DNA from: Rhizobiales bacterium Ga0077548
Lineage (GTDB): Bacteria > Pseudomonadota > Alphaproteobacteria > Rhizobiales > Xanthobacteraceae
DNA length: 37,292 nucleotides
Direction: 5' to 3'
Assembly: GCA_001464215.1 (NCBI GenBank)
Contig: LNEZ01000026.1
Coordinates: 1 to 37,292, forward strand
A program made the position numbers and the translations under genes. The notes beneath the pieces are model-generated. The model worked only from the letters and a program-made list of their open reading frames with translations, made no database searches and was not told where the DNA came from. This document shows positions 7,553-26,291 of the stretch, piece by piece. Position 1 is the stretch's first letter, and every line of letters begins with the position of its first letter.

Positions 7553-8156
7553 TCAGCGCCACGCAAACAGCGGCTGCTCGAACTCAGATACGCGGGCGAT
7601 ACGGCCGTGAAGCAATTCCGAAAATTGGTAAATGATCGCGGCGGTCGGCGCGTGCAGATGACTTCCCATGAGCGCGATCTTGATGACTGGCCGCGTGCTT
7701 TCCTTGATCGAAGCGAAGCTGACGCTCTCTTTTGTCACGAACCCGTCGAGCGGGATTCGATAAGCGAACGCCACTTCCTCCGGATTCAGCCGCAAGGGTT
7801 CGCTGTTTTCGGCCCAGACCACGATCGGCGTGATGCGGTAGCCGGACCGCGACACGAAATCGTCGAGCGTTCCCAGAACCTCCTTCGATTTCGCGAAGTG
7901 CCGCCTGCGCAATCGTCTCGCCTTCGTCGCAACGCCCGCCCGGCAGCGCCCACTGCCCCGCGTGGTTGCGCATGGTCGAAGGCCGCTCGGTCAGAATAAA
8001 CGCCGCGCGCCCGGAGCCGTTATCGGCAAGCGTCACCGCGACGGCCGCCTGCTTCAGCGCTTTGTCGGCAGCAATCGCTTCGCGCTCAAATGCAGCGCAG
8101 CGCGTGGCGACCAGCGCCTTGAATTCGGCATCAAAGAGAAAAGACAGGGGACCGCG
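7553..8156 (-). pseudogene. NUDIX hydrolase, disrupted
   Basis: Two frames together make one NUDIX protein. The upstream part reads RGPLSFLFDAEF ... GQWALPGGRCDEGETIAQAALREIE, the first two thirds of a NUDIX box (GGRCDEGET...REIE). The rest continues in another frame as VLGTLDDFVSRSGYRITPIVVW. At the join (7880-7886) only seven bases separate REI from VLG, where relatives usually have about 12-13 residues including the catalytic EExG. The loss therefore removes the metal-binding glutamates and shifts the frame. No ATG is visible at the 5' end: the frame opens after a TGA near 8188, and the first GTG is at 8036. It probably descends from a CoA-pyrophosphatase-like enzyme. An assembly error is the alternative. 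Confidence 0.75.
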
Positions 8157-8248
8157 CCTTGAACATTTGGAACTTAAGGTTCCTCAAAGCGTTTTTTCCC
8201 GTTGAGGGCAACTGGGGATGTAGCGGCCTTTTACCGACGGAGATCAAT

Positions 8249-15150: not shown

Positions 15151-18100
15151 TTCTGGCTGCGCGGCTGCGGTGCGGTCGGAATGTTCGCCGGCGGCGGCAG
15201 CAACGGCGCGCTCTCGATATCGCTCTTTGCCGGCAGGCGCTTTTTCTGCACAGGTGGCACGACGCGATCTTCCTGCGGAAGATTCATGTTGGCAGGGTTT
15301 TGTCCCCCGCGTTCGATCGCGCGAAGCGTGATCGCGGTAATCAATGCCTTGGCATCCACTTTACGCTCCGGCGCTTCGAACGGTCCGGCCCAGCGAATGA
15401 CGGCCCCCGGACGCACCGCCGAATTGCCGGCCACTTCGATATTCAGAAGCGCTTCGGCACTTCGCTTCGGCAGGTTGAGCGAACCTGAAAGCAGGATTTC
15501 GATATTGCCAGCCTTTGCCTTGGCCGATCCGCTGCGGAGAATGCCGTTTGCAATGACAAGCGGCGCCTCGAGCTTTGAGACCTTGAGCGGCGCGCGATCG
15601 AGCGCGGCAAGCAGTGCCTGCTCGATTTTCTTTTCGTCGGGCGTATCCTTCGCTGTCGCCGCAAAGACCGTACTGACCGAGGTCGCGTCGGTCTGGTCGA
15701 TTTCAAGCGCAGTTAAAGCAATCGTCCCCTGCCCCGAAATACTCGCGAGCAGGCTGTCCTGATAACTGCCGTTTGCGCTTAGGGTGAGCGAACTCCGTAA
15801 CGTCCCGCGCAGCGCCTTGGCCGAAAGCAATGTCGCGAGCGCCACATCGGTCAGGTCGAGTTTGATCTCGGCCACGCGCGGAAAAGTGTCGGCAAATCGC
15901 AGGCTGCCTGTGATTTTGCCCCCGGCAAGCTCGCCACGCAGATTATCGAACACGGTTTCATAGCGGCCAACGCGCAGGTCCAACTCTGCTTTCTGCACGG
16001 CGGCACGCTCGGAGAGTACGAGTGTCGCAACTTCCATACGCAATGCGCCGGGGAAATTGGATAGCACCGGAACGCTGAGTTCCGCGGTCGCTTCATTCGC
16101 GCGGCCAATAGCAAGCGAGATCAACGCGGCTGCATTCGCGCGCTCCAACGCGATCTGACCCGCGAAGGGCGACACCTCACCGGCAGGAAACGTGAAACGC
16201 CCCGTCCCGCGCGAGCCTGCAAGGTCAAAAGCAAGTTTTTCGAAGACGAAATTGTTCCCTTCGCGCAGGAGATTTGCGCTGCCGCTTGCGGACAGCACAT
16301 CCGGCGAAGCGCGGTCGGCAAGCACGAAAGCCTTGCGCAAATCCTTCGATTTCAGGTTGAGCGCGAGCACGGGCTCGAAGCGCCCGTCCGGGCCGAAACG
16401 AAACTCGCCTTTCGCGGTGATCTCCGTCTCCGGCAAACGGAATACAGCATCGACCGGCTGGCGCGCGTTACGAAGCTCGCCAAGATCGAATGCAAGCGTA
16501 GCCTCGCCCGATTTCGCAAGCACGCGCCAGCCGTTCTTGACCGGCAAGAACGTGCCAGAGAGCCGCAAAGGAGAATAAGAAGCAGCATATTTGCCCACGA
16601 TCAGAGCAAAATCCTCGCTGCCCGAAAGGCGCTCAAGCAGCGTGACAAAGCCGCCATTGCGGATGATTTCCGCCGTGAATTCGGTCGCGTCCTGCGCCTG
16701 CTTCGCGGTGAGAGTCACGCCGTCGAAATCGTTGAGTTCAAGGCGTTCGATCTTGAACTCGCTGCCGTCGCGTTTCACCGTCAGTCCCGCCTTCCTGACC
16801 GGCCTCTCGAACAATCGGGCATCTGTTGCGGAAAGCTCGGCAAGAATATCGATCTCTTTGCCAAAATTCGAAATATTCTGGGCGAACGGAATAAGCCCAT
16901 CCAGTTCGGCATTTCTCAGAGCGAGCTTCAATTCTGCCAAAGGCGGCTTGCCATCCGAGCCGGAGCGAAGCGCAACCGAGCCCGTGATACTTGCAGCACC
17001 AAGAGTAACTTCGAGATTGCGGAACGAAGTCAGTGACGGCGCGAAAGAAAGCTCGCCTTTCACACGAAGCGTCTGGCCCAACGAAAACTTTGCAGCCGCT
17101 TCTTCTCCAAGCAGCCAGCGCGCAAAAATCTGCGGCTCCTCGCTTTCGAAGGAAAGCGGGCCTGAAAAAACGTCTTTATCGGTTATCCCCGTGAGCGTGA
17201 CTGCTGCCCGTCCCGGCAGCCGCGCCTCCAAACGCTCCAGCGCTACCGCGCCGTTCTGCGCGCGAAGATTTACCCGCACATCGCGCGAAAGTTGTCCTCC
17301 GGCGAGAAGGCCGTCAGCGGCAATCGCAATCCGGGAGGCGAGCGGCAGTGAAGCGAGTAATCGCCGCGCTTCGGAAAGCAACGGCAACACGTGCGCGGCA
17401 CCGCTCGACGCCGCTTTCTGGTCGCCGAGATCTAGGTCGATGCGCTTGCTTGCGAGCGTTGCCTCAAGCGAGCCGTCGGCACGCGGATCGAGTTTCGCTT
17501 CGCCCGAGAGCGTGATCGGCAACTCGCTTTGCCCGAGCGCAAGTTCGAGATTGTTGAAACGAAGTTCGGAAACAACGCCCGACACATCGGACGAAACGCG
17601 CCATGGCAACACACCGCTGCGCTGCGCGGCAATTACTTTGCCGTCGAAACGGGGAGCGGCATCCGCAAGCGCGAGCAGACCATCTGCTTCAAAGGAGATG
17701 CCGTCGCCCGGACGCTCAAGCGCGAGCCGGACGCGGGCAGAATGTTCGGCGGTGAAGCGCCCGGACGACGCGCGAAGAATCCACCGCATCCCGTTCAGAC
17801 GAAATCCGCCATCGACGCGGAAAGGGCCTTCGCGCGAGACCAGTTCGCCGCGCGCGGAGAAGTCGTCGGCGAGAAATGTCGAACTGGTGCGGCGATCCTC
17901 GATCGTGAGCGAACCAGCTTCCAACACGAAGCCGCTTACAGAGATCTCCTGGCCGCCAGTCGCGGAAGGTAAAAGCAACTTGCCATCCTTTTCGATCACA
18001 ATCCGGATCGCGGGACGCGAGACGACAAACTCGCTCGCCTCCACTTTTCCCGAAAGCAACGCAGGCAAGGAAAGCGATCCGCGCATCTCGCTGGCGCGCA

Positions 18101-18335
18101 TACCAGTACCCTTCTCGGCGTCACCGAGCGAAACATTGCGCAACACGAAAGCGGGCGTGGGAAGAAGCGTCAGATCGATATTACCGGAGATGGTGACGCG
18201 CGTGCCAGCAAGCGCACTCGCCTGCGCTTCAAGCTGCGGCCGCCACTCGTTCCAGTCGATGAAGAACGGCGCCACGAATGCAGCCAAGATCGCGGCAATC
18301 AGCGCAAGTCCAAGCCCAAGCAAGGTCGTCTGCAA
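15147..18335 (-). CDS. AsmA family protein
   Basis: A 1062-residue protein anchored by one N-terminal membrane helix (LLGLGLALIAAILAAFVAPFFIDWNEW). The N-terminal AsmA segment follows (ALAGTRVTISGNIDLTLLPTPAFVLRNVSLGD), then a long beta-repeat body. The C-terminal AsmA-like region lies at about 840-1010 (LTLSANGSYQDSLLASISGQGTI, LLNIEVAG), with a disordered Pro-rich end. AsmA-type proteins are elongated periplasmic bridges linked to lipid transport and outer-membrane assembly; the exact role here is inferred. The start is TTG at 18335 with GGAG upstream. The last four bases overlap folA. Confidence 0.88.
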   Translation of the reverse strand: MQTTLLGLGLALIAAILAAFVAPFFIDWNEWRPQLEAQASALAGTRVTISGNIDLTLLPTPAFVLRNVSLGDAEKGTGMRASEMRGSLSLPALLSGKVEASEFVVSRPAIRIVIEKDGKLLLPSATGGQEISVSGFVLEAGSLTIEDRRTSSTFLADDFSARGELVSREGPFRVDGGFRLNGMRWILRASSGRFTAEHSARVRLALERPGDGISFEADGLLALADAAPRFDGKVIAAQRSGVLPWRVSSDVSGVVSELRFNNLELALGQSELPITLSGEAKLDPRADGSLEATLASKRIDLDLGDQKAASSGAAHVLPLLSEARRLLASLPLASRIAIAADGLLAGGQLSRDVRVNLRAQNGAVALERLEARLPGRAAVTLTGITDKDVFSGPLSFESEEPQIFARWLLGEEAAAKFSLGQTLRVKGELSFAPSLTSFRNLEVTLGAASITGSVALRSGSDGKPPLAELKLALRNAELDGLIPFAQNISNFGKEIDILAELSATDARLFERPVRKAGLTVKRDGSEFKIERLELNDFDGVTLTAKQAQDATEFTAEIIRNGGFVTLLERLSGSEDFALIVGKYAASYSPLRLSGTFLPVKNGWRVLAKSGEATLAFDLGELRNARQPVDAVFRLPETEITAKGEFRFGPDGRFEPVLALNLKSKDLRKAFVLADRASPDVLSASGSANLLREGNNFVFEKLAFDLAGSRGTGRFTFPAGEVSPFAGQIALERANAAALISLAIGRANEATAELSVPVLSNFPGALRMEVATLVLSERAAVQKAELDLRVGRYETVFDNLRGELAGGKITGSLRFADTFPRVAEIKLDLTDVALATLLSAKALRGTLRSSLTLSANGSYQDSLLASISGQGTIALTALEIDQTDATSVSTVFAATAKDTPDEKKIEQALLAALDRAPLKVSKLEAPLVIANGILRSGSAKAKAGNIEILLSGSLNLPKRSAEALLNIEVAGNSAVRPGAVIRWAGPFEAPERKVDAKALITAITLRAIERGGQNPANMNLPQEDRVVPPVQKKRLPAKSDIESAPLLPPPANIPTAPQPRSQN

Positions 18336-18443
18336 AAAGTCAGCTCCAAGGAATTCAACCGTACTTGGCCGAAACCGGCCCGGTCCACCAGCAAGAAGAC
18401 CCTAGCGTCCCGATTGAGCGGGAATGGGGCAAGGGTTTTATCA

Positions 18444-18492
18444 GCGCATGGCCCCGAAAAGTGGGTACCGGTTTTCGGATAAGGCCATGCGC
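18444..18492. repeat. Palindromic intergenic repeat (rhizobial type)
   Basis: The arms GCGCATGGCC and GGCCATGCGC are perfect 10-bp inverted repeats. The inner part has CCGAAAAGTGGGTACCGG followed by TTTTCGG. I recognise this as a dispersed palindromic element of Rhizobiales genomes. It fills the gap between the AsmA-like gene and the dehydrogenase gene; the rest of 18336-18497 shows nothing else. Confidence 0.8.
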
Positions 18493-18497
18493 CAAAC

Positions 18498-19904
18498 TTA
18501 AAGCGCGACGATCTTTCCCGGATTCATGATGTTGTCGGGGTCGAGCGCGCGTTTGAGCGTCCGCATCATCTCGATAACCGCCGGGCCGTGCTCGGCTTCC
18601 ATATACTTCATCTTGCCCTGCCCGACGCCGTGCTCGCCGGTGCAGGTGCCTTCCATGCGATGCGCACGCTCGGTCAGACGATCGAGAAATACTTTGACGC
18701 GCGAAAGCTCGTCCTCGTCGTCCATGTCGATGACTAAGCTGACGTGAAAGTTTCCGTCGCCGACATGGCCGACGATGGGGCCGAGCAGTTTCATGTCCTG
18801 CAAGTCTTTGTCGGTCTCGAGCACCGCCTCAGCGAGTTTCGAGATCGGCACGCAGATGTCGGTAGCAAGCGCCTTCGCGCCGGGGCGGAGAGACATCATC
18901 GCGAAATACGCATCGTGACGCGCCTGCCAGAGTTTGGTGCGCTCCTCGGCCTGCGTCGTCCATTGCAACGGCCCGCCGCCGCACTCGGCTGCGATCTCGC
19001 CGAAGCGCTCGGTCTGCTCCTTCACGCCGGCTTCCGAGCCGTGGAATTCGAGAAACAGCGTCGGCGCTTCCGCGAGATTTAATTTCGAATAATTATTGGT
19101 CGCCCGGATCGCCATGGCATCGATGAATTCAATGCGCGCGACCGGAATGCCGGACTGGATCGTCGCAATCGTCGCCTGACACGCGCCTTCCACCGACTTG
19201 AACGGGCATACTGCGGCGGAAATCGATTCCGGAATTGCGGAGAGCTTCAACGTCAATTCGGTAATCACGCCGAGCGTGCCTTCGGAGCCGACGAAGAGCC
19301 GCGTCAGGTCATAGCCCGCCGAAGACTTCTTCGCGCGGGAAGCCGTGCGGATCAGTTCGCCGTTCGGCAACACGGCTTTTAGCGACAGCACGTTGTCCTT
19401 CATGGTGCCGTAGCGCACCGCATTGGTACCCGAGGCGCGCGTTGCCGCCATGCCGCCCAGCGAAGCGTCCGCTCCCGGATCGATCGGGAAGAACAGTCCC
19501 TGATCGCGCAAATACTCGTTGAGTTTCTTGCGGGTGACGCCGGGCTGGATCACGCAGTCGAGATCCTCGGCGTGGACCGCCAGCACCTCGTTCATTTGGG
19601 CGACGTCGATGCAGATGCCGCCCATCGGCGCATTCACATGACCTTCGAGCGAGGTGCCGGTCCCGAACGCGATCACCGGCACCTTGTGCGCGGCTGCGAT
19701 CTTGACCGCGTCCTGCACATCTTCGGTGGAAGCGGCATAGACCACGGCGTCGGCGGCCTCGTTCGGCAGCCATGTCGTGGTGTTCGCGTGCTGGCGGCGG
19801 ACTTCCATCGAGGTCACGACTTTGTTGCCAAGCTTGGCGTGCAGCGCAGCGATGGCCTTTTCGACCGCGGCGGGTTCGGCCCGCTTCAGGGCGGCGTTCT
19901 TCAT
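18498..19904 (-). CDS. FAD-linked oxidase, D-lactate dehydrogenase/GlcD-like
   Basis: A 468-residue flavoprotein. The N-terminal FAD-binding domain (about 40-220) shows VPVIAFGTGTSLEGHVNAP, VQAGVTRKKLNEYL-like VIQPGVTRKKLNEYL, DPGADASLGGMAATRASGT and FVGSEGTLGVITELTLKL. The C-terminal FAD-oxidase domain ends with MEGTCTGEHGVGQGKMKYM and DPDNIMNPGKI. The layout is that of cytochrome-linked D-lactate dehydrogenases, with D-2-hydroxyacid dehydrogenases of the GlcD group as the alternative. GGAGG lies before the ATG. No glcE/glcF partners are nearby, which favours a stand-alone enzyme. Confidence 0.88.
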   Translation of the reverse strand: MKNAALKRAEPAAVEKAIAALHAKLGNKVVTSMEVRRQHANTTTWLPNEAADAVVYAASTEDVQDAVKIAAAHKVPVIAFGTGTSLEGHVNAPMGGICIDVAQMNEVLAVHAEDLDCVIQPGVTRKKLNEYLRDQGLFFPIDPGADASLGGMAATRASGTNAVRYGTMKDNVLSLKAVLPNGELIRTASRAKKSSAGYDLTRLFVGSEGTLGVITELTLKLSAIPESISAAVCPFKSVEGACQATIATIQSGIPVARIEFIDAMAIRATNNYSKLNLAEAPTLFLEFHGSEAGVKEQTERFGEIAAECGGGPLQWTTQAEERTKLWQARHDAYFAMMSLRPGAKALATDICVPISKLAEAVLETDKDLQDMKLLGPIVGHVGDGNFHVSLVIDMDDEDELSRVKVFLDRLTERAHRMEGTCTGEHGVGQGKMKYMEAEHGPAVIEMMRTLKRALDPDNIMNPGKIVAL

Positions 19905-20092
19905 TGGCGTCCTCCGGTTGCAGACGACTTTAGCAAACAGATTTGCCTGCCGTCAGTCATGTGCCGTCTCAAGCAGGAAAAGAGTCCAAGGAATCGCCGC
20001 AAACGCGCCAAACCATTGCCCGTCGTAAAGTTACAATGCATGATTGTAGTCAGAACAAAGAAAAGATTCGACCACAGGGCCGGTTACAAGAA

Positions 20093-20602
20093 ATGTTGCA
20101 GCGCCTCGACTTCGAACCAGTCTTCTTTGCACCGTTCGTTTCCTCGGCGAGGACGGTCGAGCCCGGCTGGATCGACTACAACGGCCACCTCAACATGGCC
20201 TATTACAACGTGCTGATCGACCGCTCGGTCGATGAGGCGTTCGCGCTGGTGGGCCTCGGCCCGGAATACGTGAAAGAGCGTGGCCACTCCTTCTTCACCG
20301 CCGAATGCCATGTCCGCTATTTGCGGGAGCTTCAGGCCGGCGAGACCGTCCGCACCACAATCCGGCTGATCGACTACGACGAGAAGCGCATTCACTTCTT
20401 CGCCGAGCTCTACCACGCCCATGAAGGCTGGATGTCGGCGACCTCCGAGCAGATGGCGCTGCACGTGAGCCTGAAGTCGAAGAAGGTGGTGGCGCTGCCT
20501 GACGACGTGCTCGACCGGTTGGCGGCGATGAAGGCCGCGCACGGGGCACTGCCTGCCCCCGAAGGCATCGGTCGCAAGATCGGCATGGCCAAGCGCAGCT
20601 GA
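20093..20602 (+). CDS. Hotdog-fold thioesterase
   Basis: A 169-residue acyl-CoA thioesterase-like protein of the 4HBT group. The signature VEPGWIDYNGHLNMAYYNVLID (residues 22-43, with the active-site Asp/His region) is followed by RGHSFFTAECHVRYLRELQAGE and the strand-rich IHFFAELYHAHEGW. The substrate may be a small acyl-CoA. The reading frame is open upstream, with an ATG at 20036 giving 19 extra residues; neither start has a clear ribosome site, and 20093 is chosen because homology-like sequence begins there. The stop codon lies inside the first unit of a 30-bp tandem repeat. Confidence 0.8.
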   Translation: MLQRLDFEPVFFAPFVSSARTVEPGWIDYNGHLNMAYYNVLIDRSVDEAFALVGLGPEYVKERGHSFFTAECHVRYLRELQAGETVRTTIRLIDYDEKRIHFFAELYHAHEGWMSATSEQMALHVSLKSKKVVALPDDVLDRLAAMKAAHGALPAPEGIGRKIGMAKRS

Positions 20603-22036: not shown

Positions 22037-24346
22037 TCAGGCCTTCTTGAGAAAGGAAGCCACCAGCTTCTTCTCGCCGGCCTTGTCGAACTCGACGGTC
22101 ACCTTGGTGCCTTCGACTTCCATCACTTCGCCATAACCGAACTTGTCGTGGAAGACGCGATCGCCGATGTCGAAGTTTTCGGAAGACCCGGTCGAACGCC
22201 CGATCACATCGCCTTCGATGGTCAGTCCGCGCCCGCGCGGGCTTTCCGAGAAGCCCTGCCCGCGGCGGGCTGCCGCGCGTTGCCAGCCGGGCGTCGAATA
22301 GCCGGAAGTAAAAGGCTCGGCACGATCGAAGCGGCTGTGCACCTGCGTGCCGTAGCCGGTAGTGGCATCCACCACCTCGACATGGGCTTCAGGCAGTTCG
22401 TCGAGAAAACGGCTCGGCACGGTCGTATTCCAGAGACCGTGCGTCTGCCGCCGCGAAGCGAAAGAGATCAACGCGCGCTGTTTTGCCCGCGTGATGCCAA
22501 CGTGTGCGAGCCTGCGCTCTTCTTCGAGGCCCGCGCGGCCAGTTTCGTCGAGCGAACGCTGGTGTGGAAGTAATCCTTCTTCCCATCCGGGCAGAAACAC
22601 AGTGTCGAACTCGAGACCCTTGGCCGAATGCAGCGTCATCAAGTTTACCTTGTCTGCATCGGCGCCGCCGTCCGCATCCATCACAAGCGAAACGTGCTCA
22701 AGGAAACCCTGCATATTCTCGAACTGCTCCATCGAGCGAACGAGTTCTTTCAGGTTTTCAAGACGGCCGGCCGCCTGCGCCGACTTGTCGTTCTTCCACA
22801 TTTCGGTATAGCCGGATTCATCAAGCACTATGCGCGCCAGCTCGGTGTGCGAGGTCGCTTCGAGTTGCGTGCGCCAACGATCGAATTGCGCGACCAGTTC
22901 GCGCAGCGCCGCACGCGGCTTCGGCTTTAAGTCTTCGGTCGAAGAGATCACCCGCGCGGCTTCCAGCATCGGCACCGAATTCTGGCGTGAATAATCATGC
23001 AACATCTGCATGGTGGTATCGCCAAGACCGCGCTTCGGCACATTCACGATGCGCTCGAAGGCAAGTCCGTCGGCCGGCGAGACGATCACGCGGAAATACG
23101 CCATCGCATCGCGGATTTCCTGCCGCTCGTAGAAGCGCGGACCGCCGATCACGCGATACGGCAGCCCCAAAGTCACGAAACGATCTTCGATTTCGCGCAT
23201 CTGGAACGACGCGCGCACAAGAATGGCAATATCCGAGAGCTTATGTTGCTTCCGCTGCAACTGTTCGATCTCTTCGCCGACCTGCCGGGCTTCTTCGGTC
23301 GAGTCCCACGCGCCGGTGACTTTCACCTTTTCGCCCGGCTCGTCTTCGGTGCGCAGCGTCTTGCCGAGGCGGCTTTTGTTCTTCGCGATCAGATGCGATG
23401 CAGCGGCAAGGATATTCGCGGTCGAGCGGTAATTGCGCTCGAGGCGAATAACTTTCGCGCCGGGAAAATCCTGCTCGAAGCAGATCGACTGGTCGTCGTC
23501 GCCGACGCAGCAGATATTGCGCGACCCTTGAGCAAGCAGACGCAGCCACAGATACTGCGCGACGTTCGTATCCTGATACTCGTCCACCAGCATGTAGCGG
23601 AAGCGCTGCTGATACTGCACAAGCACCTCGGCATTGTTCTGGAACAGCCGCAAGTTTTCCAAAAGCAGATCGCCGAAATCGACCGCGTTCAGAACTTTCA
23701 GCCGCGCTTGATAATCGATGTAGAGTTGTTTTCCCTTGCCGTTCGCAAACGACATCGCCTCGCCGGCGGGCACCTGCTCTGGGCCAAGACCGCGGTTCTT
23801 CCAGCCGTCGAGATAGCCGGCGAACAACCGCGCGGGCCAGCGCTTCTCATCGATATTGTCGGCTTGCAAGAGTTGCTTGATCAGCCGGATCTGGTCGTCG
23901 GTGTCTAAAATAGTGAAGCTCGGGTTCAGGCCCACAAGCTCCGCATGACGGCGCAGGATTTTCGCGCCTATCGAATGGAACGTACCCATCCACGGCATGC
24001 CTTCCACGACATCGCCAACCATGCGGCCAACGCGCTCTTTCATTTCGCGCGCGGCTTTGTTCGTGAACGTCACGGATAGAATGTTGGAGGGCCGCGCCTT
24101 TCCCGTCGCAAGCAGATGCGCGATTCGGGTCGTCAGCACCCGCGTCTTGCCTGTGCCCGCACCCGCAAGCACCAACACCGGACCGTCGAGGCTCTCGACT
24201 GCTTCGAGTTGCTCCGAGTTCAAGCCGTCGAGATAAGGCGCGATCGTGCTCGCGCGGGCACGCGCGGCAATCCCGCCGGGCTTTGGCGCAGGCGCTTCGT
24301 CGAGCGGAAAAGGTTTGAATTGCGGGTCGGCCACGTCGGCTTTCAC
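22037..24346 (-). CDS. UvrD/PcrA-type DNA helicase, motif III deleted
   Basis: A 769-residue superfamily 1A 3'-5' helicase of the UvrD/PcrA group. Most motifs are intact: Walker A AGAGTGKT (61-68), SVTFTNKAAREM (Ia), VDEYQDTN (Walker B, 254-261), RNYRST (IV), TLHSAKGLEFD (V) and HVGITRAK (VI). A PcrA-like basic tail ends with a tudor-like segment (DRVFHDKFGYGEVMEVEG). GDDDQSI (282-288) runs straight into CFEQDFPGAK, whereas relatives have about 13 residues here including YGWRGA, so motif III is missing (join at 23480-23484). The start is GTG 24346. Helicase activity may be lost. It is coupled to prmA. Confidence 0.88.
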   Translation of the reverse strand: MKADVADPQFKPFPLDEAPAPKPGGIAARARASTIAPYLDGLNSEQLEAVESLDGPVLVLAGAGTGKTRVLTTRIAHLLATGKARPSNILSVTFTNKAAREMKERVGRMVGDVVEGMPWMGTFHSIGAKILRRHAELVGLNPSFTILDTDDQIRLIKQLLQADNIDEKRWPARLFAGYLDGWKNRGLGPEQVPAGEAMSFANGKGKQLYIDYQARLKVLNAVDFGDLLLENLRLFQNNAEVLVQYQQRFRYMLVDEYQDTNVAQYLWLRLLAQGSRNICCVGDDDQSICFEQDFPGAKVIRLERNYRSTANILAAASHLIAKNKSRLGKTLRTEDEPGEKVKVTGAWDSTEEARQVGEEIEQLQRKQHKLSDIAILVRASFQMREIEDRFVTLGLPYRVIGGPRFYERQEIRDAMAYFRVIVSPADGLAFERIVNVPKRGLGDTTMQMLHDYSRQNSVPMLEAARVISSTEDLKPKPRAALRELVAQFDRWRTQLEATSHTELARIVLDESGYTEMWKNDKSAQAAGRLENLKELVRSMEQFENMQGFLEHVSLVMDADGGADADKVNLMTLHSAKGLEFDTVFLPGWEEGLLPHQRSLDETGRAGLEEERRLAHVGITRAKQRALISFASRRQTHGLWNTTVPSRFLDELPEAHVEVVDATTGYGTQVHSRFDRAEPFTSGYSTPGWQRAAARRGQGFSESPRGRGLTIEGDVIGRSTGSSENFDIGDRVFHDKFGYGEVMEVEGTKVTVEFDKAGEKKLVASFLKKA

Positions 24347-24489: not shown

Positions 24490-26291
24490 ATGTTCGAAGC
24501 GAAATTCCAGACCTTCCGGGACGAAGGCGACAAGACGCAGTCCGGCGCGCGGCTCAAAGCCTTGCGCGCAGAGCTGGCGCGGCAAGGCGTGGATGCCTTC
24601 ATCTTCTCGCGCGCCGACGAGCACCAAAACGAATACGTGCCGCCTTCCGAGGAGCGCGTGGCTTGGCTCACGGGCTTTACCGGCTCGGCCGCGATTGTCG
24701 TCGTCCTTGCCGACAGGGCCGTGCTCTTCACCGACGGCCGCTACACGCTTCAGGCAAAAGACCAGATCGACACGAAGCTGTTCTCGATCGAACACATGAT
24801 CGAAAAGCCCACCTCGAAGTGGCTTGCGGAAAATCTCCCGACTGGTGCCGTATTAGGATACGACCCATGGCGCACGACCTCCGACGGTGTCGAGCGGCTG
24901 GAGAAAGCCGTGAAGGAAGCCGGTAGCAGGCTCGTCGCAGTAAAAGAAAACCCGCTCGACAAAGTCTGGACCGGGCGCCCCTCTCCGCCGCTGACGCCGG
25001 TCGTATTGCATGGCGTGAAATTCTCCGGCGAAGAGGCAACCAAGAAAATCGCGCGCATCCGCGAGGTGCTCGCAAAAGAAAAAATTGGCGTCGCCGTGCT
25101 ATCCGATCCCGCCTCGGTGGCGTGGACCTTCAACATCCGCGGCAATGATGTTGCGCATACGCCGCTGCCGCTGTCATGGGCGATTTTGCCGCGCGAGGGC
25201 GAGCCGCAGCTTTTCGTCGATGCCCGCAAACTCTCGAACGAAGTGCGCGATGCGCTTGCGAAGCTCGCAGACGTGCGTGAGCCGCGCGAACTCGAAGTCG
25301 AATTGCACGAGGCGGCGCGGGGAACGAGCGTACGGCTCGATTCTGCGACCGCGCCTGCACGCCTCGCCGAGATTGTGACGCAGGCCGGCAGTAGTATCTC
25401 GAAAGGCGCGGACCCGGTCACGAACCTGAAAGCGATCAAGAACGAAACCGAAATCGCGGGTATGCGCGCAGCACACCTGCGCGATGGCGTGGCGCTGACG
25501 CGCTATCTGGCATGGCTGGATCGCGAAGCGCCGGGCGGCAAGATTTCGGAAATCGATGCGGTCGCAGCACTCGAAACCTTCCGCTTTGAAACCGGCAAGC
25601 TGAAAGAGATTTCCTTTCCGACGATTTCCGGCGCGGGCCCGAACGGCGCAATCGTGCATTACCGCGTGACGGAGGCGACCAACCGCAAGCTAAAATCCGG
25701 CGAACTCTTTCTGGTCGATAGCGGCGCGCAATATGAAGACGGCACAACAGATGTAACGCGCACAATCGCAATCGGCACGCCGTCACAGGAAATGCGCGAG
25801 CGTTTCACGCTTGTCCTGAAAGGTCATATCGCAGTGGCAAACGCGGTATTCCCCGAGGGCACCAACGGCGCGCAGCTTGACCCTTTCGCACGCCGCGCGC
25901 TGTGGGAAGCGGGCCTCGACTTCGACCACGGTACCGGCCACGGCGTAGGCAGCTATCTTTCCGTGCACGAAGGCCCGGCGCGCATTTCGAAACTCGGGAG
26001 TGCCGCGCTCCTCCCCGGCATGATTCCAAAGCGGGCGCTTACGGCATCCGTATCGAAAATCTTCTGCTTGTCGAGAAACGTAAAGCCGGGATCGAAAAGC
26101 CATTGCTCGGCTTTGAGACGTTGACCTTTGCGCCAATCGATCTTCGCCTCGTCGAACTGAAACTGATGAGCGCGGAAGAAATCGCGTGGCTGAACGCGTA
26201 TCACGCGGAAGTAGCCAAGAAGATCGGCCCCGCGCTCGACGCCACCGACCGCAAATGGCTCGCACAGGCGACCGCTGCGCTTAAAGCCTAA
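24490..26291 (+). pseudogene. pepP: Aminopeptidase P (M24B), frameshifted
   Basis: A roughly 600-residue Xaa-Pro aminopeptidase read in two frames. The N-terminal creatinase domain (about 1-310) precedes the pita-bread catalytic domain. Metal ligands Asp410 and Asp421 (VDSGAQYEDGTTDVT) and His484 (HGTGHGVGSY) are intact. After GPARISKLG...LLPGMI (Ile512) the frame is lost and resumes at 26028 as KAGAYGIRIENLLLVEK through to the natural C terminus (WLAQATAALKA). Relatives have LSNEPGYY between these points: 24 nt are replaced by 2, a net loss of 22 nt that removes one metal-ligand glutamate and shifts the frame. Without a correction the product ends at 26124 with a wrong tail. Confidence 0.82.

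Follow-up and report, generated by a model that had tools for sequence, protein, structure and literature searches.

The window, by which we mean the entire 37,292-nucleotide stretch analysed, corresponds to one complete contig (C26) of a 2.62-Mb draft genome, which comprises 109 contigs and has a listed completeness of 90.72% and contamination of 1.77%. On its reverse strand, at 22037-24346, lies a PcrA/UvrD helicase gene (uvrD) encoding 769 amino acids. The translation carries Pfam UvrD-helicase, UvrD_C and tudor domains (PF00580, 264.7 bits, and PF13361, 242.1 bits, both well over cut-off), and its best match in the PDB is PcrA (1PJR). Its score against the NCBIfam pcrA equivalog TIGR01073 (757.7 bits) falls below the cut-off of 911.2, as does that of the intact sister protein from the same-genus genome G003 (803.1 bits), so that the cut-off does not tell the two apart. 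In the translation, aligned with 1PJR and 2IS1, we also found the Walker A, DEYQDT, NYRST, LMTLHSAKGLEF and GITRA motifs, and these motifs and domains bear out the prediction of an otherwise intact helicase. The neighbouring gene on the forward strand, at 24490-26291, encodes a pepP-like M24 aminopeptidase, and a NUDIX hydrolase gene occupies 7556-8177 on the reverse strand; both families were assigned from the intact congener genes.

Within the uvrD translation, NICCVGDDDQSI is joined directly to CFEQDFPGAKVIRLERNYRST, such that GDDDQSI is followed at once by CFEQDFPGAK. A codon alignment with seven genomes of the same genus revealed a single in-frame gap, 36 nt long and located between positions 23481 and 23482 of the window (reverse strand), and pairwise DNA alignments with G003, G006 and G007 each placed a 36-nt gap at 23482. 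The missing segment, YGWRGADVDNIL, is present in all seven congeners, and the codon after the gap, TGC (Cys) in the window, is an Arg codon in every one of them. Outside the gap, the gene is open and ~93% identical to that of G003. The PF00580 match of the window protein reaches only position 252 of the 271-position profile, whereas that of the intact sister runs to the end (271 of 271). The original prediction had described an in-frame loss of 36 nt that removes the YGWRGA part of the protein, and the alignment with sister genomes, which it had proposed together with a check of read coverage, confirmed both the loss and its length, with the refinement that only half of motif III is gone: YGWRGADVDNIL is its second half, and GDDDQSI, the first half by the usual numbering, is kept. 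The aromatic and Arg residues of a complete motif III are missing with YGWRGA from the sequence as given. The window protein shares all domains and remaining motifs with the PcrA/UvrD helicases of superfamily 1A, but, as the gene is written, its motif III has no Tyr-Gly-Trp-Arg-Gly-Ala half, and the six residues that follow are missing too. A second PcrA/UvrD gene, for which a search had also been suggested, was absent from the draft, in which the sole further match covered 52 residues on contig C63 (E 9.5e-4).

The motif GD[DPA]DQ[SA]I[YF]x[WF]RGA was present in 109 of the 111 loci gathered; because at least three contigs of the genus are, by their lengths, duplicated among the loci (L003/L032, L005/L033 and L008/L034), the 109 represent no more than 106 distinct loci. 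The two loci without the complete motif were the window itself and a 1.8-kb stretch (L002) with a 52-residue match to another helicase. Judged by these sequences, the absence of the segment from the window UvrD is not due to chance.

When the intact sister protein was aligned with Deinococcus radiodurans UvrD (4C2T), YGWRGA corresponded to Tyr261-Ala266, counted along the printed line. According to a report on the Deinococcus protein (PMC3797037), nucleotides stack on Phe263 of motif III, another base is sandwiched between Arg264 and Phe196, and Tyr261, also in motif III, helps to keep the stacking residues in place. By this alignment, the lost residues include the counterparts of Tyr261, Phe263 and Arg264, which bind or support ssDNA, in agreement with the proposal that the missing residues contact ssDNA, and a protein lacking them would be expected to be crippled.

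We compared ~268 kb of the draft with congeners in total. A DNA screen set five draft contigs (208 kb; C26, C12, C10 and C18 whole, and C16 to base 40000) against the syntenic regions of G003, G006 and G007, with aligned draft lengths of 117, 149 and 159 kb, respectively, and counted gaps of at least 6 nt that had conserved flanks and were seen against at least two relatives. In a protein screen, each target was searched with open reading frames from the remaining genomes, and the agreement of two query genomes was required; a first, looser version was too noisy because of shadow open reading frames and was redone with stricter rules and this two-genome support. Rows with a single internal stop, which occurred in all four genomes and resembled shadow reading frames or start-site differences, were excluded from the counts of the stricter version. 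A second sample consisted of the first 20 kb of each of contigs C7, C9 and C11 (60 kb), compared with G006 and G007.

The DNA screen counted 7 gaps of at least 6 nt in the draft and 5, 4 and 7 in G003, G006 and G007; gaps of at least 16 nt numbered five in the draft (22, 27, 29, 36 and 39 nt) and zero in each of the three congeners. When the flank requirement was relaxed and the minimum size set to 10 nt, 6 gaps were counted in the draft and 2, 6 and 3 in G003, G006 and G007. G003 then showed a gap of 32/34 nt, and G006 one whose size was inconsistent (10 or 40 nt); the draft gained a gap at C10:3914 that was also inconsistent in size (49 or 26 nt) and is not included among its deletions. In the stricter protein screen, the draft (293 tests) had three places where genes were split over two or more frames, namely valS, the pepP-like gene and the region 19774-20599 of the window, and no gene was in two frames with two-genome support in G003 (267 tests), G006 (292 tests) or G007 (307 tests). 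Among the matches listed in the looser version was one control row read in two frames (G007, C2c 17745-18925), with one query genome only. In the second sample, 70 tests of the draft turned up two genes split over two frames, gyrA and a dihydroxy-acid dehydratase gene, and neither control had any (0 of 67 and 0 of 66). The region 19774-20599, read in two or three frames in the protein screens, was dropped as a deletion, for it is a stretch of variable length that has a long insert in G006 and shows no clean gap. Within it, at 19940-20160, length varies among the congeners, and the long G006 insert is absent from the window.

Besides uvrD, the draft has seven deletions of 21 to 50 nt relative to its congeners and one 1-nt frameshift in the ~268 kb compared. 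A 34-nt gap, at about 3167 of contig C10, shifts the frame of the gene whose intact congener counterpart is named valine--tRNA ligase (valS); all that the draft has of this gene are two pieces in different frames, and the remaining matches are distant (23-45% identity). Both DNA screens overlooked this gap, which was detected through the protein screens. The gyrA gene has two gaps, one of 21 nt and one of 50 nt, at about 3021 and 4611 of contig C7 in one order or the other, with a frameshift, and is read in two frames; besides its pieces, the draft holds no close copy, only a 52% identical paralogue. Within the window, the pepP-like gene has a 22-nt gap near 26027-26033 that shifts its reading from frame 1 (to 26025) to frame 3 (from 26028), and the NUDIX hydrolase gene has a frameshifting 29-nt gap near 7880-7883. 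Only the looser protein screen showed the NUDIX gene in two frames, and it did so with each of the three relatives; the gene lies below the identity limits of the stricter screen. In-frame gaps of 39 and 27 nt lie in an ABC transporter ATPase gene and, at C12:446, in a gene that we recognised by eye as presumably metH, respectively, and a 1-nt gap puts the dihydroxy-acid dehydratase gene in two frames. Of the eight coding gaps of at least 21 nt, four are multiples of three (21, 27, 36 and 39) and four are not (22, 29, 34 and 50), so that there is no clear selection for frame.

These results suggested that the missing 36 nt are very probably an assembly or consensus error of the draft and not a property of the organism, and that the helicase of the living bacterium is most likely an ordinary PcrA/UvrD in which motif III is complete. 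Similar gaps were also seen elsewhere in the draft, in core genes present as single copies, and none such were found in the congeners. Both valS and gyrA are essential in bacteria, and because a cell in which the only valS and gyrA were broken should not live, the class of gaps as a whole must for the most part be error. Because the uvrD gap has the size range and look of this class and lies 2.5 kb from the gap in pepP, another of its members, we infer that it belongs there too. Several observations speak against reading it as an error: the gap is exactly in frame and leaves the remaining gene open, with looser flanks the congeners show a few gaps too, and in-frame gaps of 8 to 9 residues were found by the protein screen in control genes as well, for example in the uvrD of G007. 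By these control genes, an in-frame gap alone is unremarkable.

The original prediction had instead taken the gap, if real, to mark a helicase variant, a reading that we consider very unlikely. The strain would then have a PcrA/UvrD whose motif III lacks its second half and which is inactive or altered as a helicase; the open frame, the ~93% identity to G003 outside the gap and the lack of a second copy in the draft speak for such a deletion. It is made improbable by the 21- to 50-nt deletions and frameshifts that the same draft, unlike its congeners, carries in core genes, including the single-copy valS and gyrA, since these genes cannot all be truly broken, and by the presence of the segment in all seven congeners. 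In Bacillus subtilis, moreover, cells do not survive inactivation of pcrA (PMC7385302), and the same may be true of the window bacterium. That the lineage's only UvrD-type helicase should lack the ssDNA-stacking Tyr-x-Trp-Arg part of motif III is likewise very unlikely; if true, it would be a natural variant in which ATP hydrolysis drives movement along DNA in an altered way or no longer at all. Still less likely is that the draft samples a lineage undergoing erosion or hypermutation, with true deletions of 20 to 50 nt in many of its core genes. Several core genes are indeed hit together, but a cell could not live after losing its only valS and its one close gyrA, and the congeners, judged by gaps and frames, show nothing of the kind in the same stretches; erosion would leave stop codons and larger losses too.

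If the gap is an error of the draft, as we think by far the most probable, it resembles the gap and frameshift errors of draft assemblies in that short gaps are scattered over single-copy core genes and are absent from congeners, and it differs from them in that the sizes are mostly 21 to 50 nt rather than 1 to 2 nt (there is one 1-nt case). Comparison of the gaps yielded no sequence rule that accounts for them. The possibility that each gap lies in the most conserved stretch of its gene, as might result from the collapse of sequence shared between metagenome species, fits uvrD and pepP but was dropped as a rule, the NUDIX gap being in a variable stretch. Slippage between short direct repeats was likewise rejected: by eye, only the 27-nt gap has a repeat at its edges, an imperfect one, and the uvrD gap has none. 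As biology, the uvrD gap is most likely immaterial. It does serve as a caution that a draft listed as 90.7% complete and 1.8% contaminated can still have short gaps in core genes, some of them in frame; where a single motif is missing in such a draft, other single-copy genes should be compared before a functional variant is called.

Length variation of another sort was seen in the UvrD proteins of relatives. Some, at loci that include L031, L038, L041, L044 and L107, have long inserts in the loop that precedes motif III, just ahead of NICCVGDDDQSI, and the spacing from DEYQD(S/T) to VGDDDQS is 20 residues in 72 loci, 24 in 28 and 39 to 80 in 7. The DNA of the insert in the UvrD of G014 matches 17 other stretches of the G014 genome, as if a dispersed repeat were being read in frame there. 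In 11 of 17 genomes of the same family outside the genus, the UvrD matches are split, on one contig, at the loop before motif III. Separately, a stretch of ~95 nt on contig C12 of G000 (8037-8131, L130) matches dozens of places in G006, often in both orientations, as well as some in G001, G003 and G007, and it appears to be a dispersed, inverted-repeat-like element of the genus.
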